A stretch of DNA of 64,000 nt from Deltaproteobacteria bacterium (GTDB lineage: Bacteria; Desulfobacterota; SM23-61): contig VGSF01000009.1 of NCBI GenBank assembly GCA_016875165.1, forward strand, positions 16,068 to 80,067, read 5' to 3'. A program made the translations under genes and the position numbers. The first letter of the stretch is position 1. The number at the start of each line of letters is the position of its first letter. Shown piece after piece: positions 38,085-55,597 of this stretch. Below the pieces are notes generated by a model. It ran no database searches, was not told the DNA's origin, and saw nothing but the letters and a program-made list of their open reading frames with translations.

Positions 38085-38133
38085 TAATTGCATTTTAATA
38101 TTGCATACTATATATATCATATATCAATTTATA

Positions 38134-38162
38134 TTGACAACAGTATTATTCTGGAATATAAT
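38134..38162 (+). promoter_or_regulatory. Consensus sigma70-type promoter TTGACA-17-TATAAT upstream of XRE-helicase gene
   Basis: TTGACA 38134-38139, 17-nt spacer, TATAAT 38157-38162; ATG of the helicase at 38169. Confidence 0.8.
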
Positions 38163-38168
38163 AAGGCC

Positions 38169-41100
38169 ATGAATAGCGAAAAGATAAAAAGTATACGCTT
38201 AAAGCTCGGTTATTCACAGCAAGAATTCGCCGCCGCTCTTGGGGTATCCTTTGCAACAGTCAATCGTTGGGAAAATGGGAAGGCTAAACCGCAAAAGGAC
38301 CGCATTGGGAGGATGCAAGCACTTTTAAAACAAAATGAGCAAGAAAAAATGCAGCCCGAACCAGCCTTCAAGCAACTTCCACGATTAAACTTCGAAGGCG
38401 ACCCGGAAGCGATAAAGCTCGTGATAGATGCATACCGACTACAGAATGGGCATCTTTTTAATAAGGCTTTTGGCCTTGAGCTTTCTCGGGTTGTTCCCCT
38501 TCCTCATCAGAGAATTGCGGTCTATGAATATCTCCTTTCGCAAAACCCTCTCCGCTTTCTTCTCGCGGACGATGCCGGTGCTGGAAAGACCATTATGGCC
38601 GGTTTGTATATCCGTGAGATGATCAATCGCGGCCGGATATCACGAGTAGGTATTTTCTGCCCCGCAGGCTTAACCTGGAATTGGCGGAGAGAATTGAAGC
38701 ATTTTTTCGATCTCGATTTCCAGGTGCTCCGAAGCTCTGATTTTCAAAAGGGGGATCCATTATTCTCTTCTGACCATGCAGGCTTTATTATCAGTGTGGA
38801 TACGGCATCAACGGATTTTGTGAAAGAGCGATTAATGTCGCCCACAATGCCAGGGTTTGATCTCATTGTTTTCGATGAGGCACATAAACTGGCCTGGGGG
38901 GATCCCAAACGAAGAGACAGTCAGACCCGCCGCTACCGCCTGGCCGAAGCCCTTGGCCCTCGCACCAACCATATGCTTCTGCTGACGGCCACCCCGCACA
39001 TGGGCAAGCCTTTCCCATACTTTGCTCTTTGGCGCCTGCTGGACCCCAATGTATTCACCACTCTTGATGCCCTTCCATCCCTGGAAGCAGAAAAGCGCTC
39101 GAAATATTTTTTGCGTCGTTTAAAAGAGGAGATGGTGGATTATAAAGGACAACCCATCTACATGCCTCGTCTTTGTCAAACGATATCTTTTGAATTGAGC
39201 CCAGGGGAACAAAATTTTTATGAGGAAGCTTCAGCCTATTTGCGCTGGAGCTACGAAACCAGCATGACCCACAATAAAAATGCAGCGGCCATGGTCGTTG
39301 CAGTTTTGCAGCGTCGTCTCGCCAGTTCCACTTACGCCATGCTGGAGTCGCTCAAGCGGATACGGTCACGAATCATAGAGAACGATCTTCCTTCATCTCC
39401 GGCCGATTCCCTTCCTCTTGAAAAAATCATAGAACATTTTGATAGTAGCACTGCGGATGAAGGCGAACCTTCGGAGGACGGCCGGGAAAGCGACGAAAGT
39501 TTTGAAGATCAAGCACTCAATTTGAAAAAGCCGGCCACAAACCAGCAACGCGAGAAGGAATTGGAATCCTTGGAGCGGATCATTGAGCTTGGAGAAAATG
39601 TTCGCGCCACGCTCCAGGAAACGAAGTTTATCAAGTTGAGGGAGCTGATAGAATCAGCCGAATTTCAGAACGAAAAAATATTAATCTTCACCGAGCACCG
39701 GGACACCCTAAATTATTTGCGCCAGAGGTTTGAAGCACTGGGGTATACCGGCCAGATTGCTTCGATCCATGGAGGCATGGATGTTGAAGAGCGGGAACAA
39801 GAGCGGTTATTCTTTATGCCCCCCGAACTTCGCCCATTGGAGAGCGGCAAGAAAATGGATGACCGCAGTGCCCGCATCATGCTCGCCACAGATGCCGCAG
39901 GGGAAGGTATAAACCTGCAATTCGCCTGGCTCATGGTGAACTTCGATATCCCCTGGAACCCGGCCCGACTGGAACAAAGGATGGGGCGGCTGCACCGTTT
40001 CGGCCAGAAACATAGCGAAGTGAGAATCTTTAACCTGGTCGCTGAAAAGACGCGGGAAGGAGATGTGCTGGCCACCCTTCTTTCCAAGCTGGATGAAGCG
40101 AGAAAAGAATTGTGCAGCGACAAAGTTTTTGATGTAATCGGCCAGCAGCTCCAGGAAGTTTCGCTGCGGGATCTGTTGCGCGAAGCGTTATTTGAAACGC
40201 CCCCCTATACCGCCCAAAAAAAACTGGAATCCATCTTTGCCACCCAAAAATTGCGGGCTACGATTGAGGAGCAGAGAAAAACGGCATCAACGTATGGGGA
40301 TGTCGGCCGCCGCCTGGGGGAGCTCAACAATGAGGTCGATGCCGAAAGGTTTAATTGCCTGCTTCCGGCGTTTATTCAGAATTTTCTGGAAAAAGCGGCT
40401 CCCCGGTTGGGAATTCAATTGGAGGGAGACTTAAGCGAGACGGCCCGCTTTTCCGTGATGGGAAATGATGGGAATTGGCTGCGCCTGCTGGCTGATCGTT
40501 TTCCGGAGGGCCTGCCCGAATGCCTGACTGTCCGTCGAGAACCGGATTTACCCGATGTGAATACCGGTCAGTGCGCCTTTTTAAGGCCCGGCGAATTAAT
40601 TTTTGACGCCTTTTGTCAGGAGACGATCCGCCGATTTCAGGAAGATGTAACAAAAGGGGCGGTATTCTGTGACCCTGCGGCAGAAAAGCCGTATTACGCC
40701 GCGGTTTATCTCTGCCAGATTGGAGAGCCCTCCCGGGTTATAAAATCGGGAGCGAACGGCGGTATTTATAAACTTTTGGACCGGAAATTAATCGGCTTAA
40801 AATGGGATGAAACAGGGGATTTAAACCTCTGCCCCCCCAATCATTTGCTGGCGCTCCTGGCGGCTCCACGTTCTCTGATTTGGAAAGCAGGGAATCTCTT
40901 GCTCAACCCGGAAGATCAAGCAGTTAAGGCGGATGTTTATGCTCGCATGGTGGCCGAATCCAGCTATTTGCAGCAGATGCGGACAGCTCTTCAAGCAGAA
41001 ACGCAATCCCGCATGGACGATATCATGCGCGGTCTTGATTTTCGCAGCGGCGAATTGGCCGAGAAGAGAAGCGAGCTATCCCGACGGGTACGGGTGGGTG

Positions 41101-41657
41101 AGGCGACTGGGGCTGAAGAGCTTGAAAAGGTGAAAAAAGAGCAGGCTCAGCTTGAGGAGGAGAAAGCGGAAATCCTTTTATATGAGCAGAGAAGGTCGGA
41201 TCTTCTTGAAATCATCAAAATGGAGCGGCTTGCTATTGCCTTGATCATTCCGGATCCGAGCCCCGTAGCCCAGGAGACTTACGACAAAAATATCGAAGCA
41301 ATGGCCATGCGCATCGCCCGTAATTTTGAAGTGGATCGCTATAAAGCCCGAGTATTTGATGTTTCCTCGCCCCACCTTGCCAGAGGATATGATCTGGAGA
41401 GTCACCGGGCAAACGGCGAAAAGGTGGTGATTGAAGTAAAGGGCCGGGCCGGGCGCGGGCCGGTTCAGCTAACCGAGAATGAATGGCCAACAGCCGTAAA
41501 TGTGCGGGACCGCTATTGGCTTTATGTGGCCGTCGATTGCGCTACAAATCCCAGACTTTATCGTGTACAGGACCCGGCCTTTAAATTGGCGGTGAAAAGC
41601 CGGCAGAGTTTCACGATTAATATTGGAGAGGTGATTCGGGAGGCAGAACAGGATTAA
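38169..41657 (+). CDS. SNF2-family DEAH helicase with N-terminal XRE HTH and C-terminal DUF3883
   Basis: [99 protein letters not shown]; C-term [34 protein letters not shown]. Confidence 0.9.
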   Translation: [1162 protein letters not shown]

Positions 41658-41701
41658 AGAAAAAAGATTAAGGCGCAAGGCAAAAGGATAAAGGAGAAAA
41701 A

Positions 41702-42931
41702 ATGGGGAAGCAAACAAAGCTGGTTAAAGGAGGAGCTTTTCCTGCAATCCTGCCGGAAATTCGGTCCATGATCGAACAGTCCCGTGATCATGTAGCCTAT
41801 ACGGCCAACCTGTTTCTGGTCAATCTTTATTGGAATATCGGGCGAATTATCACCCAGGATATTCAGGCGAACGAAAGAAGGGCCGAGTATGGGGAGCAGC
41901 TCATAGAAGAATTGGCTAAGGAATTGGGGAAGGAATATGGATCAGGTTACTCAGCGAAGAATCTGTGGGATATGAAAAGATTCTTTGGCGCCTTTGAGAT
42001 TCTCCAGACAGTGTCTGGAGAATTCAGGGACGAGGTAATTCTCCGACCTCTAAGCGGGAAGGCCTTAGGATCTGGAAATGTGCAGCCACCGGCTGCAGAA
42101 TCACGTGTGCAGCGAATTCGTCAGACAGCGTCTAATCAATTTGAGAAAGACAAGATTCTCCAGACACTGTCTGGAGAATCCTCTGAGCGTCTTCGAATCG
42201 ACTTTGATAAGCATTTCCGCATTGGCTGGTCCCATTATCGCCTTCTTCTTGGTCAAAGTGATCCCCTCAAACGCAAATTTTATTTTGAACAATCCGCCTC
42301 CCAGCGATGGTCTGTCCGCGAACTCCACCGCCAGATTGATGGCGCCCTTTTCGAACGAGTAGCCCTCTCCCGCGATACCCGCAAGCTTGCCAGTCTCGAA
42401 AGACGAAAAAGTCCGAAAGAGGTAGTCCGATACGAGGACATTTTCAAGGATCCCTACCTTCTTGACTTCCTCGGCTTGAAAGGCGCTTATTCGGAGAAAG
42501 ATCTCGAAGCTGCGATTATCCATAACCTCGAACAGTTCCTGACAGAGCTGGGCAGTGATTTCTGCTTCATTGGCCGCCAGTACGCGATGCGGATTGATGA
42601 CGTGGATTATTTTCTTGATCTTCTCTTTTTCCACCGTGGATTAAGTTGTTTAGTGGCCATTGACCTGAAACTGGGTACCTTCACCGCAGCCGACAAGGGC
42701 CAGATGGACCTTTATCTTGCCTGGCTGAAAGAGCACGAATGGCGCGAGGGCGAAAATGAACCTATCGGTTTAGTTTTATGCAGCTCCAAAAAACGGCAGC
42801 ATGTCGAGTTGCTGCTACGCCATGGACCGCATAAAATGCAGGTCTCTGAATATTTGATGAAGTTGCCAGACAAGAGACTGCTCGAAGAAAGACTGCGAAT
42901 TTACAGTAGGCTGTTGAGAGGTGAGAATTAA
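41702..42931 (+). CDS. DUF1016 / YhcG-family PDDEXK nuclease
   Basis: IRSMIEQSRDHVAYTANLFLVNLYWNIGRIITQDI..RAEYGEQLIEELAKEL; WSVRELHRQIDGALFERVALS; FLDLLFFHRGLSCLVAIDLKLG. Confidence 0.88.
   Translation: MGKQTKLVKGGAFPAILPEIRSMIEQSRDHVAYTANLFLVNLYWNIGRIITQDIQANERRAEYGEQLIEELAKELGKEYGSGYSAKNLWDMKRFFGAFEILQTVSGEFRDEVILRPLSGKALGSGNVQPPAAESRVQRIRQTASNQFEKDKILQTLSGESSERLRIDFDKHFRIGWSHYRLLLGQSDPLKRKFYFEQSASQRWSVRELHRQIDGALFERVALSRDTRKLASLERRKSPKEVVRYEDIFKDPYLLDFLGLKGAYSEKDLEAAIIHNLEQFLTELGSDFCFIGRQYAMRIDDVDYFLDLLFFHRGLSCLVAIDLKLGTFTAADKGQMDLYLAWLKEHEWREGENEPIGLVLCSSKKRQHVELLLRHGPHKMQVSEYLMKLPDKRLLEERLRIYSRLLRGEN
41999..42193. repeat. Five tandem in-frame 39-bp units (13 aa each) carrying palindromes, inside DUF1016 gene
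   Basis: Units ILQTVSGEFRDEV / ILRPLSGKALGSG / NVQPPAAESRVQR / IRQTASNQFEKDK / ILQTLSGESSERL; ATTCTCCAGACA[G/C]TGTCTGGAGAAT in units 1 and 5. Confidence 0.8.
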
Positions 42932-43433
42932 GACGCGGAGACACGGGGACGCGGAGACGCGGAGACGCGGAGATTTTGATATGGAAAATATCAGATCATT
43001 TAAGGAACTGAAGGTTTGGAATAAGGCAATGGACCTTGCTATGGAAATATTTGAAATCACCAAAAAGTTTCCACCAGAAGAAAGGTATTCACTGACGGAT
43101 CAAATTCGGCGTTCTTCGAGATCCGTGCCGGCAAATATTGCCGAAGCATGGCGTAAAAGACGGTATCCGGCGGCATTTGTAAGCAAGCTTAATGATGCAG
43201 AGGGCGAGTCTGCCGAAACGCAAACGCATATTGAAATAGCAAGGCGCTGTGGGTATATTGAACCGGAAGCAGCTTTGAGGGTCGATAATTCATGCGAAGA
43301 GACCATGGCAATGCTCGTTTCAATGATTTCGAACCCCCATCAATGGACCATACGCCGTTCAACCAAGGTAAATGGAACGAAATCATGACTAAACCGTTCA
43401 ACGCGTCTCCATGTCTACGCGTCTCCGCGTCTT
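42930..43433. mobile_element. Putative S23 (four-helix-bundle) cassette bounded by imperfect inverted repeats
   Basis: AAGACGCGGAGACACGGGGACGCGGAGACGCG (from ~42930) vs reverse complement of 43401-43433 AAGACGCGGAGACGCGTAGACATGGAGACGCG: 27/32 matches by eye. Confidence 0.55.
42981..43388 (+). CDS. Four-helix bundle protein (S23/IVP family)
   Basis: SFKELKVWNKAMDLAMEIFEITKKFPPEERYSLTDQIRRSSRSVPANIAEAWRKRRYPAAFVSKLNDAEGESAETQTHIEIARRCGYI. Confidence 0.88.
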   Translation: MENIRSFKELKVWNKAMDLAMEIFEITKKFPPEERYSLTDQIRRSSRSVPANIAEAWRKRRYPAAFVSKLNDAEGESAETQTHIEIARRCGYIEPEAALRVDNSCEETMAMLVSMISNPHQWTIRRSTKVNGTKS

Positions 43434-46400
43434 CATCAGATTTCCCCCGTCTTATCGAAGTTGCCTTTCCTCTTAAGCAAGCCTCACTGGCCAGTGTGCA
43501 TGAGAAGAATGTGCGGCATGGGCATATTTCTACGCTTCATATTTGGCCGGCGAGGCGGCCTTTGGCGGCGTGCCGGGCGGCGCTTTTGGCCACATTGCTT
43601 CCCGATCCGGGCGATCCTGTTAAACGGCAAGCATTGCTGGAAAAGATCGGCGGAAGAGTCGTTTTCAAAAAGGTGAAAACCGTAAATGAAGAAGGCGCTA
43701 CCGTAACTGAAGAAAAGGAGACGCTCGAAAGGGGCGTGTTGGCTTGGGGGCAGGAGAATGATCCGGCAATGGATGAATTTCGCAAATTGATCCGGAAATA
43801 CTACGGCGATAAGGCGCCGAAGGTTCTGGATCCATTTGCCGGTGGGGGTGCAATTCCACTGGAGGCCATGCGCCTTGGCTGCGATGTTATCGCTTCTGAT
43901 ATCAACCCGGTGGCCTGGCTTATTTTAAAATGTACTCTTGATTACCCCCAACAATTTGCAGGCAAGAAATGGCCTTTGCCAGATTTTGTCAGGGACTGGC
44001 CGGATTTCATCGAGGATTTTCTGTCGGGAAAAATTAAGAAGCGAAGAGGAAAAAGGAAACCGCATTCTACCGATCCACAGCAACTCCAATTGCTTAACCT
44101 TCCCGACGCAGATTTGGCCTGGCATGTTCGGGCATGGGGACGATGGGTTCTGGAGAGAGCAAGGGCCGATCTCGCTGCCCGATATCCCATTATAGACGGC
44201 GAACCGACAGTGGCTTATCTCTGGGCGCGGACTGCCCGCGACAAAATTACGGCTGGGAAAATTCCTCTGCTCAAGACTTTTTGGCTATGCAAAAAGAAGG
44301 GGAAAAGAATTGCGCTGCTGCCGGTTCCCAAGGAGGATGGCTCCGTGGTCACTTTCAAATTATTACATGACGCCGATCTTACCAAGCCCCAGAAGATAAT
44401 TGATGATTATCCATTTCTGAAAAAGTGGGAAATCAAAGCCGATAAATTAAGCGACTTTCTGAACGCGGGCACGATGAACCGGGCTGGAGTGTGGAGCCCG
44501 TGCAGCGGCAGACCGAAATTGATTGCCTTAACCATGGATGATTTGCGACGCCAAGGACAGCAAGGACTTTTGGGAAACCAGATGACGGCGGTTGTCGTTG
44601 AAGCCACTGCGCCGGATGGCAAGAAAACCTTCAAACGTTATCGTTTGCCAATCGAAGAGGAAAGTAAGGCTGCGCAGGTTGAGATTGAAGACATGGAGGA
44701 TGTGTTTTCCGATATTCCCTTTGGAATACCTGACGAACCTTTGCCGCCGGTTGGCACGTTGGGTTTCCGTATTCCTCTCTACGGCTTTAAAAAATGGAGA
44801 GATATTTTTACATCGCGGCAGCTTTTGGCGTTGGGAACTTTTGTTAAACATACCCGCAAGGCCGTTCATGAAATCACGCGCAAAGATGAAAAGGTAGCCG
44901 AAGTTATTGGGGCTTATCTTTCGATGATTCTTGATCGGGTTGCAGACCGCGGCAGTACGATCTGTACATGGACTGTTGATTGGAACAAGATAAGAAATAC
45001 ATTTGGCCGATTTGCTCTTCCGATTACCTGGGATTTTGCCGAAAGCGTGACAACCGTTGAAACCTCCGGAGGGTATCCAGGGCAGATTGAGTTGGTTGCC
45101 CAATTCGTGGCGCATGCTTCAAAAATGGGCAATACAAACAGTCCCTTATTATCCGTCAAAAAGGAATCGGCCATTTCAATAGATGATAAAGGCATAGATT
45201 TTGTCGTTACTGATCCCCCTTACTATGATGCAATTCCTTATTCAGATTTAATGGATTTTTTCTACATCTGGCTTCGCCGAAACCAATACGGTTTCAGTCA
45301 GCAAATGGATGATGTTTTTCAATGGCCTTTGTCGCCGAAATGGAGTCATGAACAAAAGGATGGCGAGCTGATTGATGATGAATCAAGGTTCGGCGGTGAT
45401 AAAGGGGCTTCAAAGAAGTCATATGAAGATGGGATGGCCAGAGCTTTTCAAAAGATGTGCGAAGGGTTGAGTGCTGAGGGGCGAATTGTAATTGTTTTTG
45501 CCAATAAAGAGGTTGATGCTTGGGAAACCCTTATCGGGGCCTTGATCCGCGGTGGGGCGACCGTAACGGCAAGCTGGCCGATCCAAACCGAGATGCCCAA
45601 TCGCGTTCGCAATGTCGCAGCGGCAGCTCTTTCCACATCTGTCTGGATCGTCTGTCGCAAGCGGCTGAGCACAGCGGCGGCAGGATGGGATGCTAATGTC
45701 CTTGCCCGGATGAAGCAAATCCTTTTCGACCCCAGGGAAGTTCTTGGGGGTCGGAATATCCTGCAATATTATTTTGACCTTGGCATTCGGGGGCCGGACT
45801 TCATCTGGGCGGCATTAGGCCCGGCATTGGAGGCTTACAGCGCCCATCCTTTCGTGAAAAAGCAAGAGGGTGGGGTGATGACCGTCCCTGAATTTTTGAA
45901 AGAAGTTCGCAAGCTCGTGCTGCAATTTTCCCTTGGCGAACTTCCGGGTTTCCGGGATGTGCAGCGGGAAACACAAGGGCGGGGCGAGGCGATCGAACTT
46001 GATCCCGTAACGCAATATTATCTTTTGCACCGCGCCTATTTCGGCCTTGAACCTGCGCCTGCCGGGGCCTGCATCCTTTATGCGAACGCCTGCGGCAAGA
46101 ACGAGACGGAATTAAAATTAGTGTGGAACATCATCGAACAAGGCGGCAAATCCAAAAGGGGGCGGCCCACCAAGGAAGATTCCGAAATGGAAGAGGAGAG
46201 TGGGGGCGAAACAAAAGGCAACGAATACCGTCTTCTGGATTGGGCCGAACGGGTGAAAGATGACCGTCTTGGTGAAACCCGCGGGGGGAATCCTGCTCCT
46301 TTGATCGATCGTCTACATCGCCTGATGCTGCTTTTTAATCAAAACCGCACAGGTGAAGTTCAGCAGGCATTTGACGCCTGGGGGTTGTCCAGCGAACGAG

Positions 46401-46573
46401 CTTTCGGCCCTCTGCTCCAGGCAGTACGCGAGTTGGCCGTGCGGGATGAAAGGGATACGGAGAGGCGTCTGGTAGAAGCGCTGGCGACGCAGCTTAAAAT
46501 GAATCACCGAACAGTGATTGCGGAGAATGTGGTCCGGGATACGCCGCTTTTCGAATACGGGAAGGAAAAGTAA
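43385..46573 (+). CDS. DUF1156 (COG1743-type) adenine-specific DNA methyltransferase
   Basis: IEVAFPLKQASLASVHEKNVRHGHISTLHIWPARRPLAACRA; DPFAGGGAIPLEAMRLGCDVIASDINP; DPPYYDAIPYSDLMDFFYIWLRR. ATGA overlap with S23 stop. Confidence 0.9.
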   Translation: MTKPFNASPCLRVSASSSDFPRLIEVAFPLKQASLASVHEKNVRHGHISTLHIWPARRPLAACRAALLATLLPDPGDPVKRQALLEKIGGRVVFKKVKTVNEEGATVTEEKETLERGVLAWGQENDPAMDEFRKLIRKYYGDKAPKVLDPFAGGGAIPLEAMRLGCDVIASDINPVAWLILKCTLDYPQQFAGKKWPLPDFVRDWPDFIEDFLSGKIKKRRGKRKPHSTDPQQLQLLNLPDADLAWHVRAWGRWVLERARADLAARYPIIDGEPTVAYLWARTARDKITAGKIPLLKTFWLCKKKGKRIALLPVPKEDGSVVTFKLLHDADLTKPQKIIDDYPFLKKWEIKADKLSDFLNAGTMNRAGVWSPCSGRPKLIALTMDDLRRQGQQGLLGNQMTAVVVEATAPDGKKTFKRYRLPIEEESKAAQVEIEDMEDVFSDIPFGIPDEPLPPVGTLGFRIPLYGFKKWRDIFTSRQLLALGTFVKHTRKAVHEITRKDEKVAEVIGAYLSMILDRVADRGSTICTWTVDWNKIRNTFGRFALPITWDFAESVTTVETSGGYPGQIELVAQFVAHASKMGNTNSPLLSVKKESAISIDDKGIDFVVTDPPYYDAIPYSDLMDFFYIWLRRNQYGFSQQMDDVFQWPLSPKWSHEQKDGELIDDESRFGGDKGASKKSYEDGMARAFQKMCEGLSAEGRIVIVFANKEVDAWETLIGALIRGGATVTASWPIQTEMPNRVRNVAAAALSTSVWIVCRKRLSTAAAGWDANVLARMKQILFDPREVLGGRNILQYYFDLGIRGPDFIWAALGPALEAYSAHPFVKKQEGGVMTVPEFLKEVRKLVLQFSLGELPGFRDVQRETQGRGEAIELDPVTQYYLLHRAYFGLEPAPAGACILYANACGKNETELKLVWNIIEQGGKSKRGRPTKEDSEMEEESGGETKGNEYRLLDWAERVKDDRLGETRGGNPAPLIDRLHRLMLLFNQNRTGEVQQAFDAWGLSSERAFGPLLQAVRELAVRDERDTERRLVEALATQLKMNHRTVIAENVVRDTPLFEYGKEK

Positions 46574-46624
46574 TCTTCAAAAATCCCCCCCGCCCCCCTT
46601 TTCCAAGAGGGGAAAGGAGCTTTC

Positions 46625-49600
46625 ATGAGCAAAACATCTGTGATTCTGCCATGGAAAAAGACCTGCACCCTCAGGCCGGAAATCCGGGAACGAAAGCATA
46701 CTTCCAGCGATTTCGCCATTGACCTACAAAAGGTCATAAATGGAGGAACGGGGGCGAAACCTTATTATTGCGATCCGGAACAATTCTTTGCCACCACTTA
46801 CGCTACGCAGAATCTGAGGCAGCTATGCAAGGTTGTCCTCCGCAGGCTGGCTGACGCCGGGGGCGGGGAGCCTATCATAAATATCGCCCAAACCTTTGGC
46901 GGCGGCAAAACCCATACTTTGACTGCCCTGTATTACCTTACGACCCTGGAGGAAAAACTGCCCAAGAAGCAGACATCCGTGGGTATGATTCTGAACGATG
47001 CCCAGATCAAAAATCCACCTATAGCCAGAGTGGCCGCCGTTTCTTTCGACAAGGTGGATTGGAAGGTGGGCGGAGATGTGAAATCCCCCACAGGCGAGAT
47101 CCGCCAATTCCACATGCCCTGGAATTTGATTGCCTGGCAGCTCCTTGGCCAGAAAGGGCTGGATATTCTGCAGCGCGATGAGAGCCAGCCGGATTTTGAC
47201 ACTCCGCCGGCAGACACCCTATGGACAAAAATCCTGAATGCGGTCGAGATGTCGGGGCATGGGGCGTTGATCCTGATCGATGAATTCCTGATGTGGGCGC
47301 ATGATGCGGCTTCTCCTGATCCTGCCGGGGAACGAAAGGACCGGGGCCCGGTCTGGTATGACCGATTGAAGAACTTTTTCCAGAAGCTGGCCCAGGCTGT
47401 GGAGTCTTCCCGGCGTTCCTGTCTGGTCGTCTCCTTGCTGGCGACGGAACCGGCCAGAAACGATGAAGTCGGCAAAGCTATCCTCACGGCCTGCAACAGC
47501 GGCTTGAACCGGCAGGCATCCATTCAGTCTCCCGTGGAAAAGGACGACCTGGGCGAATTGCTCCGCCGCCGGCTCTTTGAAAAATATCCTGAGAGTGAAA
47601 CCGAGCGGCATAAGCATATCCTGGCCTTTTGGCATCGCTTGGAATCGGTAGATAGGATTCGAGCGAAGATGCCGGACGCGGAAGAGCGGCTGAAAAAATC
47701 CTATCCCTTCCACCCTGATCTTTTGGACCGGTTCTTTGGGAAATGGACAGACCTGGATCAGTTCCAGAGGACCCGAGGCGTTCTTCAGACCTTTGCCATG
47801 GCCTTGCGGGATGCCGAGACATGGGATGATTCCCCATTAATAGGCCCGCAGGTTTTTTTACCCGCACCTGCGCAGGATGGATTGAGCGAGGCCCTCCAAA
47901 AACTTGCGGAGAATGCCAAGGACTCGGACCGGGCGAGGAATCCCCAATGGCCGGCGAATTTAAAAACCGAGCTTCCCCGCGCTCTCGAAGCCCAAAAGGC
48001 GGAAGCAGCCACTTTAACCGGCCGGGAAATCGAAGCTGCTTGCATCGGTTCCTTTATTTATTCCCAGCCGATTGGGGAGCAAGCGGAATTGAGCGACCTG
48101 CGCTGGTTGTTAGGAGCGACCTGCGACATGCCCGCTGTGCTCAATAATGGTTTAAAAACCTGGGCAAAGGTATCCTGGTATCTGGAAGAATGCGAGGCCA
48201 CCGAGGCAGGAACCGACGTTCCCAAGTTCTGGCGGCTTGGGCCTAAGCCAAACCTTAACCAGTTGCACGATTCCTATAAAAGGCAGGCCATGAAACACGC
48301 CAGGAGCAAATTCGATGAATTGTCGGCAAAAAAATGCCCACCTTTATACGAGGGCATTGAAGAAGGGGTTATCGTGCACAAGCTGCCCCCTTCACCTGCG
48401 GATGTTGAAGATGACGGTCAATTCCGCTTAGTGGTTCTGGGAGCCGACTATGCGGGAAGCGCGGGCGATCCGCCGAATCCCAAGGCTGCAGAATTCTTGC
48501 GCACTCATTCATCTCCTGTGGACACACGCACCTATCAAAATATTTTGCTCATTGCAACGCCGAGCATTCCCGGTTTGCACCAGGCCGAGCAACATATTGC
48601 CGAATGGATGGCCTGGGGGGAAATCCGGGTATCCTCCCCATATAGGGAGATGGACTCTTTCCAACAGGCGACGGTAAAAAAACGGGAGAGAGAATCCCTT
48701 CAACAGGCCCAGACTTCCGTAAAGAATGCCTATGAACTTGTCATTTATCTGCACAAAGACGGGACAGCCCAAGCCCGAAAAATCACCATGGGGGCGCAAT
48801 CTCTTTTTGCGACCTTGCTTTTGGAAAAAGAATTGCGGTTGTTCAAGGAAAAAATCGATGCGCAAGCCATTATGCCTAATGGACTCTATCCTGTATGGCC
48901 TCCCGGTGCCCCTGATGTTGAAGTTCGCGACTTATATCAGGCCTTCGGCCAGGAACCTCGACTTCCTAAACTTCTGAGCCAGGGAACGGTTGTCAGGACT
49001 ATTGAAGATGCCGTGAAAAGGGGGGTCCTGGCTTTATGTTGTAAGAGACCCGACGGTTCCCAACAATGGTATTGGAAGAGCGATATCGATATGGCCGACT
49101 GGGTCAAACAGGGCGAAGCCTGGCTGCCGGAAAAAGCGACGCTGAATTCCTTGAGCCCCTTGGCCATATCTCCGGATTCGCTGCCGGGACTGTGGCCTGC
49201 TGAGGACACCGGTATAAAACTTGCCACTTTATGCTCATGGTTTGATGGCAAGCATACGTATGAAGAAAAATCGCATCCGGATTATCCCCCAGAAAAACGA
49301 CCTATTCCCAGGGTGGATTACAGGCAGGTGCATCAGGCGGTAAGTAAAGCGGTAGCCAATGGATCTATTTGGCTTGTTCTGGGGAATGACAGCGTGTTTC
49401 AAACCACACCCAGCGCAATTCAACTCGATCCCGATGCCGTATTGTTTCGTCCTCCTCAAGCGCTATCGGCAATTGATTTTCTTCCCAGCGCTTTACCTGG
49501 GGCCTGGTCGATTGAAGAGGAACCGAAAACAAAGGTGGAGATGCTCCATGCCAGATTAAAAGCCGCGCGCGGGAAACCATGGCCTGAAAAAATTTTCCTG

Positions 49601-49945
49601 GATGGCTTGAATGCAGCCATTGGCCAAGGATTTATCCACCGTATGTCCGGATCGGGGCCAATCGGTTCTTTAGCTCATGATGGAAAAGTTGGAGTTCAAA
49701 TTAAAAAGGAGCCCCTCACCCCACCGCCACCGGCGCCGGTATCCGGCCGTAAAATGACCAACACGGTCACCTTAAATGCCGCCGAAGTTCAAACGTTGGC
49801 GGAGGAAATCTCCCACATTACCAAGGCGTTAGCCGGCTGTGATCCTCAGGTTGAAGTCAGGATTAGTATTAAAGCGAAGCCCGGAAAAGATCTGGAGAAA
49901 GCCTCTGAAATACTTAAGAAGGTTAAACCAAAATGGGGTTTCTGA
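46625..49945 (+). CDS. DUF499 (COG1483-type) AAA+ ATPase
   Basis: IINIAQTFGGGKTHTLTALYYL; ALILIDEFLMWAHDAA; C-terminal KAKPGKDLEKASEILKKVKP. Confidence 0.88.
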   Translation: MSKTSVILPWKKTCTLRPEIRERKHTSSDFAIDLQKVINGGTGAKPYYCDPEQFFATTYATQNLRQLCKVVLRRLADAGGGEPIINIAQTFGGGKTHTLTALYYLTTLEEKLPKKQTSVGMILNDAQIKNPPIARVAAVSFDKVDWKVGGDVKSPTGEIRQFHMPWNLIAWQLLGQKGLDILQRDESQPDFDTPPADTLWTKILNAVEMSGHGALILIDEFLMWAHDAASPDPAGERKDRGPVWYDRLKNFFQKLAQAVESSRRSCLVVSLLATEPARNDEVGKAILTACNSGLNRQASIQSPVEKDDLGELLRRRLFEKYPESETERHKHILAFWHRLESVDRIRAKMPDAEERLKKSYPFHPDLLDRFFGKWTDLDQFQRTRGVLQTFAMALRDAETWDDSPLIGPQVFLPAPAQDGLSEALQKLAENAKDSDRARNPQWPANLKTELPRALEAQKAEAATLTGREIEAACIGSFIYSQPIGEQAELSDLRWLLGATCDMPAVLNNGLKTWAKVSWYLEECEATEAGTDVPKFWRLGPKPNLNQLHDSYKRQAMKHARSKFDELSAKKCPPLYEGIEEGVIVHKLPPSPADVEDDGQFRLVVLGADYAGSAGDPPNPKAAEFLRTHSSPVDTRTYQNILLIATPSIPGLHQAEQHIAEWMAWGEIRVSSPYREMDSFQQATVKKRERESLQQAQTSVKNAYELVIYLHKDGTAQARKITMGAQSLFATLLLEKELRLFKEKIDAQAIMPNGLYPVWPPGAPDVEVRDLYQAFGQEPRLPKLLSQGTVVRTIEDAVKRGVLALCCKRPDGSQQWYWKSDIDMADWVKQGEAWLPEKATLNSLSPLAISPDSLPGLWPAEDTGIKLATLCSWFDGKHTYEEKSHPDYPPEKRPIPRVDYRQVHQAVSKAVANGSIWLVLGNDSVFQTTPSAIQLDPDAVLFRPPQALSAIDFLPSALPGAWSIEEEPKTKVEMLHARLKAARGKPWPEKIFLDGLNAAIGQGFIHRMSGSGPIGSLAHDGKVGVQIKKEPLTPPPPAPVSGRKMTNTVTLNAAEVQTLAEEISHITKALAGCDPQVEVRISIKAKPGKDLEKASEILKKVKPKWGF

Positions 49946-51321: not shown

Positions 51322-51520
51322 TCACCTCCTGTACCTTCCTCTTTGATGGGACCATGTTGAAGAAGGGGTGATCGGATATCCGTCTGGAGCTCCCAGAGAT
51401 TTTAGGTTTAATAACCCCTTTCACTTTGCCGTGATACAGGATGGTCACCTCCTCATTACGATCGATGGCCTTAAGAATCTCGTTCATCCGATAACGCAGG
51501 TCTACAATCGATGCTTTCAT
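51284..51520 (-). CDS. Antitoxin (Phd/YefM-like), partner of the PIN toxin
   Basis: MKASIVDLRYRMNEILKAIDRNEEVTILYHGKVKGVIKP; overlaps toxin start. Confidence 0.78.
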   Translation of the reverse strand: MKASIVDLRYRMNEILKAIDRNEEVTILYHGKVKGVIKPKISGSSRRISDHPFFNMVPSKRKVQEVIADLRGDRYRAL

Positions 51521-51589
51521 AATCCACCTCTAATATGTATATTTGCATTATGCAGATTTTAAAAGGGTCTGTCAAGAGAATTGAAGAAA

Positions 51590-51790
51590 TTTTCCTAACT
51601 TCTTCGGTGGTGAGGAACTCGATGGGGTTGGACACAGAGACGCGCGGCAGGTCGGGGTGGCGATGGAGGACGGCGTCAAAAATCAGGGATGCAAGCATCG
51701 TGCTGTCCTTGCCGCCGCTGAACCCCACCAGCCATGGGCGGTTGTCCCCCAAGTAAAGACGGCAAAGGAGGCCTCGAATAGAGGCTGTTA
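51590..51790 (-). pseudogene. Fragment of a DndC-like PAPS reductase/sulfurtransferase
   Basis: Minus strand VTASIRGLLCRLYLGDNRPWLVGFSGGKDSTMLASLIFDAVLHRHPDLPRVSVSNPIEFLTTEEVRK; PP-loop SGGKDST then truncation. Confidence 0.65.
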
Positions 51791-53477: not shown

Positions 53478-55073
53478 TTGCTAAAAAAGCATGATAAATT
53501 TGCCATGGCCGAGGCGGTTCGGGCCGCCTACCAGGCCGGAGAAAATGATGATGAAACTCTGGAACCGAGGGTTCTGGTGGGCCGGGACGGCCAACCCATC
53601 GGCCGGTTCCGGGACGGGGATTATGTCATCTTCTACAACCTCCGGGGAGAGCGGGAAGTGGAACTTTGCCAGAGCCTCTTGGATAAGGACTTCACCCATT
53701 TTCTGGTGGAACGAAATCTGCGACTGAATATGGTAACCATGATTCCTTACCATAAGAGTCTTAATGTAAAGATCGCTTTCTCCCCCGAAGAAGAAATTCA
53801 CGATACTTTGAGCGAAACCCTGAGCCGGCACGGATTGCGCCAGGTCAAAATTTGCGAATCGGAAAAAGCCATCCACGTAAGCTATTTTCTCAACGGCAAA
53901 ATCCGCGAGCCCTTCCCCGGCGAAGCAAGAATCGTTGTGCCCACCCCCAGGGATGTTCCTTATCTGGACCAGAAGCCCGAATTGAATGCGGCCGGGGTGG
54001 CCGAGGCAGTCATCCAGAAATTGGAAGATCGGGAAGTCGATTTTTTATTCGCCAATTTTGCCAATATTGACGTGGTCGGACATTTCGAGAATGAAGGCGC
54101 CATTAAAAAGGCCGTGGAAGCCGTGGATACCAACCTGGAGCGCTGCCTTGAGGCTGCCCGCAAAGCCGGAGTGATCGCCATTATTACCGCCGACCATGGA
54201 ACAGTGGAAAAGTGGCATTATCCAGACGGAACAATCGATACTGGCCATACCAACAGTCCTGTTCCCTTCATCCTTGTCGATCCGGATGAGGATGAACGCT
54301 TTTCCTGGAAGATCAGAGAGGATGGAGAGCTATCAGATTTGGCGCCGACTATCCTGCAAATCCTTGGTTTGCCCCAACCTGCGGCCATGACCGGACGGAG
54401 CCTTCTGAGACACCGGCCGCTGAGAAAGAAAAACAGAGTTCTCGTCCTCCTTCTTGATGGCTGGGGATTTCGCCCGGATAAGCAGGGGAATTTGATCGCC
54501 AGCGCCTATACCCCTGTGATGAATGATCTGCAGGCGAGATATCCTTTTACCACGCTAAAGGCTTCCGGAGAAGCGGTGGGCCTTCCGGAAGGAACCGTGG
54601 GCAATTCAGAAGCCGGACACCTGCACATCGGCGCCGGGCGGAAAATCTATTCCGACCGCCTGCGCGTTGACCAGGCCATCCAGGATGGATTTTTCTTTGG
54701 AAATGAAGCCTTCCTTTGGGCCATGAGGGGGGCCAAAGCAGAGGGGAAGAACCTCCATCTCTTAGGGATAGTTTCTTTTTTCAGCTCCCATGGATCTGTA
54801 ACCCACCTGCAGGCCTTATTAAAATTGGCCAAACAGGAAGGGGTGGAAAGACTCTTTCTGCATGCCATGCTGGGGCGGCGGGGTGAACGCAAAGAGAGCG
54901 GAGCTAACTACATCGATCTGGTCGAAAAGGAAATGGAAAAGCTCGGCGTGGGCCGGGTGGCCTCGGTCATCGGCCGCTACTGGTCCTTAGACCGGGAAGA
55001 AAACTGGGACCGCATTGAGAAGACCTACCGCATGCTCATCTACGGCGAAGGGAATTGCGTTTGGGAAAGATAG
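53478..55073 (+). CDS. Circularly permuted 2,3-bisphosphoglycerate-independent phosphoglycerate mutase-like protein
   Basis: First ~310 aa match the iPGM C-terminal portion (AAYQAGENDDETLEPRVL..GDYVIFYNLRGER..GLRQVKICESEKAIHVSYFLNG..VVGHFENEGA..TADHG..HTNSPVPF..LSDLAPTILQILGLPQPAAMTGRSLL); the rest match its N-terminal portion (VLLLDGWGFRPDKQGNLIASA..ASGEAVGLPEGTVGNSEAGHLHIGAGR..GRYWSLDREENWDRIEKTYRMLIYGEG). Confidence 0.88.
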   Translation: MLKKHDKFAMAEAVRAAYQAGENDDETLEPRVLVGRDGQPIGRFRDGDYVIFYNLRGEREVELCQSLLDKDFTHFLVERNLRLNMVTMIPYHKSLNVKIAFSPEEEIHDTLSETLSRHGLRQVKICESEKAIHVSYFLNGKIREPFPGEARIVVPTPRDVPYLDQKPELNAAGVAEAVIQKLEDREVDFLFANFANIDVVGHFENEGAIKKAVEAVDTNLERCLEAARKAGVIAIITADHGTVEKWHYPDGTIDTGHTNSPVPFILVDPDEDERFSWKIREDGELSDLAPTILQILGLPQPAAMTGRSLLRHRPLRKKNRVLVLLLDGWGFRPDKQGNLIASAYTPVMNDLQARYPFTTLKASGEAVGLPEGTVGNSEAGHLHIGAGRKIYSDRLRVDQAIQDGFFFGNEAFLWAMRGAKAEGKNLHLLGIVSFFSSHGSVTHLQALLKLAKQEGVERLFLHAMLGRRGERKESGANYIDLVEKEMEKLGVGRVASVIGRYWSLDREENWDRIEKTYRMLIYGEGNCVWER

Positions 55074-55159: not shown

Positions 55160-55597
55160 ATGCCCAAAATTCTGATGATACAGGGAAGCAACATGAATCT
55201 GTTAGGGATTCGCCAGCCGGAGATCTACGGGACGACCACAGCCGCCGAGCTGGATAAGATGATGAACGGTTACGCGAAAGCCAAAGGATTTGATCTGGAT
55301 ATCTTCTACACAAACTCCGAGGGAGAGTGCATTGATCGCATCATCAAAGCCTACCATGACAAAGTGGACGTTTTGGTGATGAACCCGGGAGGGTTCACTT
55401 ACGCCGCCTATTCCATCCGGGACACGATCAAAGGGGTTAAGATGCCTTACGTGGAAGTTCACCTTTCCAATCATTATGAACGGGGAATCCATTCGGTAAT
55501 TGCCCCGGCAGCCCAAGGCGTCATCATGGGCCTGGGAATCCAGGTTTATTTCATGGGCCTGGATGCCGCCTTGTATTTAGCTGCCAAGAAAAAATAG
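55160..55597 (+). CDS. Type II 3-dehydroquinate dehydratase-like protein (divergent)
   Basis: ILMIQGSNMNLLGIRQPEIYG; YTNSEGECIDRIIKA; MNPGGFTYAAYSIRD; VEVHLSNHYERGIHSVIAPAAQG. Confidence 0.82.
   Translation: MPKILMIQGSNMNLLGIRQPEIYGTTTAAELDKMMNGYAKAKGFDLDIFYTNSEGECIDRIIKAYHDKVDVLVMNPGGFTYAAYSIRDTIKGVKMPYVEVHLSNHYERGIHSVIAPAAQGVIMGLGIQVYFMGLDAALYLAAKKK

Follow-up and report, generated by a model that had tools for sequence, protein, structure and literature searches.

A widespread, circularly permuted family related to cofactor-independent phosphoglycerate mutase, probably acting on a different substrate

The stretch of DNA analysed here (the window, 64,000 nucleotides from a Deltaproteobacteria bacterium) carries at 53478-55073, on the forward strand, a gene related to cofactor-independent phosphoglycerate mutase (iPGM) that encodes 531 amino acids in a single unbroken frame. 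The TTG start codon at 53478 is plausible because it is preceded by GAGGGGG. Met10 is aligned with a methionine in 40 of 52 relatives; most of those shown have (F/Y)(P)-like residues ahead of it, suggesting that Met10 is probably an internal residue.

In canonical iPGMs the chain runs from the start of the phosphatase domain through an inserted transferase domain to the rest of the phosphatase domain. The window protein departs from this order. An initial annotation of the locus had read it as a C-terminal part followed by an N-terminal part, and all of our comparisons agree (canonical residues are numbered as in the B. stearothermophilus enzyme, PDB 1EJJ). With phmmer, residues 12-310 match residues 218-509 of the 1EJJ chain (211 bits) and residues 318-526 match residues 3-211 (200 bits, ungapped); both matches are strong, do not overlap and stand in the reverse of the canonical order. 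The HMM alignments, to which the initial annotation had pointed as a check, are likewise non-canonical: Pfam places Metalloenzyme at 99-299 and iPGM_N at 397-526, and the NCBIfam matches stand in reversed order too. The canonical C-terminal part (1EJJ ∼213-509), comprising the end of the transferase domain and most of the phosphatase domain, thus occupies residues 6-310 (53493-54407), and the canonical N-terminal part (1EJJ 3-211) occupies residues 318-526 (54429-55055). The old C terminus is connected to the old N terminus, both within the phosphatase domain, by a linker of about 8 residues (RHRPLRKKN, residues 311-319, 54408-54434, delimited by phmmer and the family alignment), and the new termini fall in a transferase-domain loop, around residues 211-217. 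GC and GC3 are similar between the two halves of the gene.

The same permuted order was found in about 81 distinct full-length loci, gathered from relatives of the host and from a scan of GTDB genomes followed by ORF extraction, with 52-94% identity to the window protein; the 94% identical protein is its orthologue in the same genus. These loci form 85 full-length rows in our alignment, four pairs being one locus fetched twice, and a few further permuted loci are cut by contig ends. Since the order recurs in so many loci from many assemblies and projects, chance and mis-assembly are excluded, including the join inside the ORF that the initial annotation had raised as a concern. The spacing from MTG to DGWG, across the linker, is 22-31 amino acids in 84 of 85 rows while the linker sequence varies, and the C-terminal tail past GEG is usually 4-10 residues long, as expected for surface loops.

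By record title, the hosts belong to Deltaproteobacteria/Thermodesulfobacteriota (Desulfobacterota, many of them Syntrophales), Chloroflexota, Aminicenantes, Zixibacteria, Armatimonadota, Gemmatimonadota, WOR-3, Stahlbacteria, TA06 and Fibrobacterota; one locus, from an Undinarchaeal MAG, may result from a binning error. Every locus named in the GTDB scan comes from a MAG or an uncultured bin. The distribution is patchy: in the host's phylum about 15 of 297 genomes have the gene, truncated in two of them, and in a Chloroflexota group 2 of 151 have it, counting the centre genome. The permuted iPGM is a widespread family and not a one-off, a breadth that the initial annotation did not foresee. 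No relative of the permuted protein was found in the viral contigs searched.

For a tree, the permuted proteins were put back into canonical order and aligned with canonical iPGMs, 20 of bacterial type and 8 more distant (plant/trypanosomatid-like). The permuted sequences group in a single clade with a support of 100 on a long stem of 1.13 changes per site (a quick tree, with SH-aLRT support only). On these sequence comparisons the permutation is real, ancient, conserved and of one origin. Tandem duplication followed by trimming is the usual model for circular permutation and a possible route here, on which the tree is silent. Neither a tandem intermediate nor a canonical-order protein with the permuted signature was found among the 297 and 151 genomes, where two-half matches are near 40-52% identity.

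The catalytic machinery is preserved almost in full. Nine contacts to 2PG/3PG are described for the B. stearothermophilus enzyme, S62, H123, R153, D154, R185, R191, R261, R264 and K336 (PMC3886921), and the metal ligands are given for the C. elegans enzyme (PMC5382265). The nucleophile S62 and all metal ligands (D12, D403, H407, D444, H445 and H462) are present in 85 of 85 rows. In the window protein the ligands correspond to Asp327 (54456-54458), the DVVGH segment at residues 198-202 (54069-54083, holding D403 and H407), Asp239-His240 (54192-54197) and His257 (54246-54248), and the phosphoserine nucleophile corresponds to Ser377 (54606-54608), all on the forward strand, as are the segments that follow. 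Eight of the nine substrate contacts are kept in at least 84 of 85 rows, the exceptions being alignment gaps; among them, K336 (Lys130, 53865-53867) is found in all 85. The ninth, D154, is Gly in 85/85 permuted rows versus Asp in 28/28 canonical ones.

This loss lies in one of several segments that distinguish the family. The LDGRD-type segment, found in all 28 canonical proteins, is with its following residue replaced by LGRRGE (residues 465-470, 54870-54887; GRRGE is invariant in the family), in which R153 is kept and D151, G152 and D154 have become G, R and G, respectively. In the DGGVHSH segment, an invariant SSHG stands in place of GVHS (residues 436-439, 54783-54794), with His438 corresponding to H123. 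The canonical R(A/P)DRA is replaced by RGERE (residues 56-60, 53643-53657), again invariant and retaining R261 and R264. Further block changes convert DMVGHTG to DVxGHxEN, DHGNAEEM to DHGTVEKW, and TAHT to TGHT. The altered DGGVHSH and LDGRD segments (here FSSHGSV and LGRRGE) had been remarked on in the window protein before, and prove to be invariant or nearly so across the family. That these changes are so strict, and occur together close to the substrate pocket, suggests that selection has favoured a different specificity and speaks against decay.

Structure prediction gives the protein an iPGM fold. An AlphaFold2 model computed with 52 family members as input has a mean pLDDT of 89.5 and a pTM of 0.84, and iPGMs account for all of its best 22 PDB matches, in line with the earlier suggestion of a probably folded enzyme. 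These 22 matches have query-normalised TM scores of 0.38-0.48 over about 230-330 columns; such partial coverage by a sequential aligner is as expected of a permuted chain.

Profile scores probably explain how the family stayed hidden under an ordinary 'GpmI' annotation. The window protein scores 476.1 bits against TIGR01307, above the equivalog cut-off of 330.65, in two reversed stretches, and 52 of 52 aligned members match this profile with E ≤ 1e-20, so the permuted proteins are probably annotated as GpmI. Against the GpmI/iPGM profile NF003897 it reaches 390 bits, below the curated cut-off of 862, and against the ApgM profile TIGR00306 it reaches 40.2 bits, below the cut-off of 320. We found no description of a permuted phosphoglycerate mutase in openly licensed PMC papers, although it may have been noticed elsewhere.

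No shared operon or pathway emerged from the gene neighbourhoods compared across permuted loci. A macro-domain gene lies 3' of the permuted gene on the same strand, mostly at 4-30 bp, in 18 loci of mainly Syntrophales type (L062:7594-8124, PF01661, E 2e-45, and its counterparts in the 17 others); upstream in these loci, mostly on the opposite strand, are genes read from the sequence as PCMT-like and LysM-like. In four Chloroflexota loci a histidine phosphatase adjoins the permuted gene. Neither pattern points to a substrate. In the window, the gene directly downstream (55160-55597, forward strand) encodes a type II dehydroquinate dehydratase-like protein which, at 133 bits, falls below the AroQ equivalog cut-off of 169.85 and may have a non-shikimate role. 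The genes around it, for a cupin, a GPI-type cupin, RpiR and an ABC binding protein, form a sugar-uptake context. A sugar operon that includes the permuted gene was considered from these neighbours and rejected, the context being absent even at the same-genus locus (L031). Elsewhere in the window, four genes in one row at 38088-49945 (forward strand) form a probable Hma-type anti-phage system: an HmaA helicase (E 5e-144), a PDC-S02 nuclease-like protein, an HmaB methylase (E 5e-108) and an HmaC ATPase (E 7e-72). A 93-residue fragment at 51471-51752 (reverse strand) matches the beginning of DndC-like proteins (E 2e-9) and is probably a defence-gene remnant.

A conventional phosphoglycerate mutase (PGM) is encoded beside the permuted gene in 36 of 40 host genomes. 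A genuine ApgM, scoring over the TIGR00306 cut-off and distinct from the TIGR02535 'proposed homoserine kinase' type, occurs in 24 of them, and in one further genome the ApgM is divided between two frames; 8 show a long match to canonical iPGM, and 4 carry a dPGM, one of these together with an iPGM. The host of the window has its ApgM at G000:C107, over the NF003160 equivalog cut-off. A second PGM occurs in only 5-8 of 38 relatives with a canonical iPGM: two have an ApgM-like match below the cut-off and three a near-full-length dPGM, and the upper figure includes partial histidine-phosphatase matches. For this difference Fisher's test gives p ≤ 5e-10, uncorrected for shared ancestry. Of six further permuted hosts, four (G191, G238, G322 and G339) have ApgM and/or dPGM, one (G260) has neither of these two types, to which this search was confined, and one (G302) appears to duplicate a counted genome, having the same coordinates as G109. 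The permuted protein is thus normally an addition, and is probably not the glycolytic mutase. Four of the 40 hosts (G004, G110, G111 and G124) showed no other PGM, which is a counterpoint to a changed substrate, though all four assemblies are drafts and may be incomplete. ApgM relatives of the TIGR02535 type, such as that at G000:C5:12507-13703 (L111) in the host, occur in nearly all surveyed relatives and can be mistaken for PGMs.

We therefore consider it probable that the protein is an enzyme of the alkaline phosphatase superfamily, derived from iPGM by one ancient permutation, that carries out iPGM-like phosphotransfer on a substrate other than glycolytic 2PG/3PG. The architecture is new, the chemistry is probably that of iPGM and the substrate is probably different. 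Our favoured candidate activity is a metal/phosphoserine phosphotransferase or mutase acting on another small phosphorylated hydroxy acid. With this acid held in the Arg/His/Lys pocket, its phosphate would move to the metal-bound Ser377 and from there back to a different hydroxyl, or on to another acceptor. The absence of Asp154 and the reshaped loops around it make a relative of phosphoglycerate the probable substrate; however, with eight of the nine contacts in place, the enzyme may still accept 2PG/3PG. The changed substrate that the initial annotation had allowed for thus gains support from the invariant loss of Asp154 and the separate PGM of most hosts.

It is also possible, if unlikely, that the protein is a true 2PG/3PG mutase, an isozyme for some conditions or for gluconeogenesis, in which the permutation and the loss of Asp154 are tolerated. 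Such an isozyme would accord with the full set of metal ligands and the eight contacts, with a TIGR01307 score above the equivalog cut-off, with the four hosts lacking another PGM, and with the lack of co-occurrence with a strong bacterial-type iPGM in the phylum survey; it sits poorly with another PGM in 36 of 40 hosts and with group-specific changes that are invariant and clustered in the substrate-binding loops. Conservation of the full set of transferase-domain arginines, which a plain phosphatase would not need, makes it rather improbable that the enzyme acts on small acids as a phosphatase (or phosphonate/sulfate-ester hydrolase), the phosphoserine being made and then hydrolysed because a residue that places or activates the substrate hydroxyl has been lost, as might be read from the invariant Asp154-to-Gly change, the hydrolases among superfamily members and the histidine phosphatase neighbour in the four Chloroflexota loci. 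An artefact of assembly or a decaying pseudogene, for which the draft state of the host assembly (234 contigs) is the sole argument, is already refuted by the intact order and strict conservation across the distinct loci.

Circular permutation is seldom found in nature among central metabolic enzymes, and the permuted iPGM is an ancient, conserved and widespread case. With one domain cut open and the termini of the other fused, it offers a clean way to examine what a two-domain hinge enzyme can tolerate. Should the substrate prove different, many genes of uncultured anaerobes are wrongly annotated as 'GpmI', among them cases in which such a gene would count as the glycolytic mutase of a genome-based metabolic model. 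The chances seem to us about even that all of this holds together, namely that an unrecognised family, derived from one ancient iPGM permutation and spread over many phyla, performs phosphoryl transfer on a new substrate while annotated as GpmI.

Among known systems, other substrates have precedents within the PGM superfamily in two types named by NCBIfam, the PhpG-type phosphonoformyl transferase and the TIGR02535 'proposed homoserine kinase'; these are ApgM-type and unpermuted, and the window protein has no NCBIfam match to either. ApgM itself, the archaeal-type PGM (TIGR00306) that accompanies the permuted gene in most hosts, shares the superfamily and the chemistry, but is shorter, canonical in order and similar only weakly and locally (38-40 bits). 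The closest relative is GpmI (TIGR01307; PF06415 and PF01676; PDB 1EJJ). Each half of the permuted proteins is about 40-45% identical to it, and they retain both of its domains, Ser62, the full set of metal ligands and eight of its nine substrate contacts. They differ from GpmI in the reversed halves, in Gly at position 154, in usually having another PGM alongside, and in invariant motifs of their own (SSHG, LGRRGE, RGERE and DVxGH).
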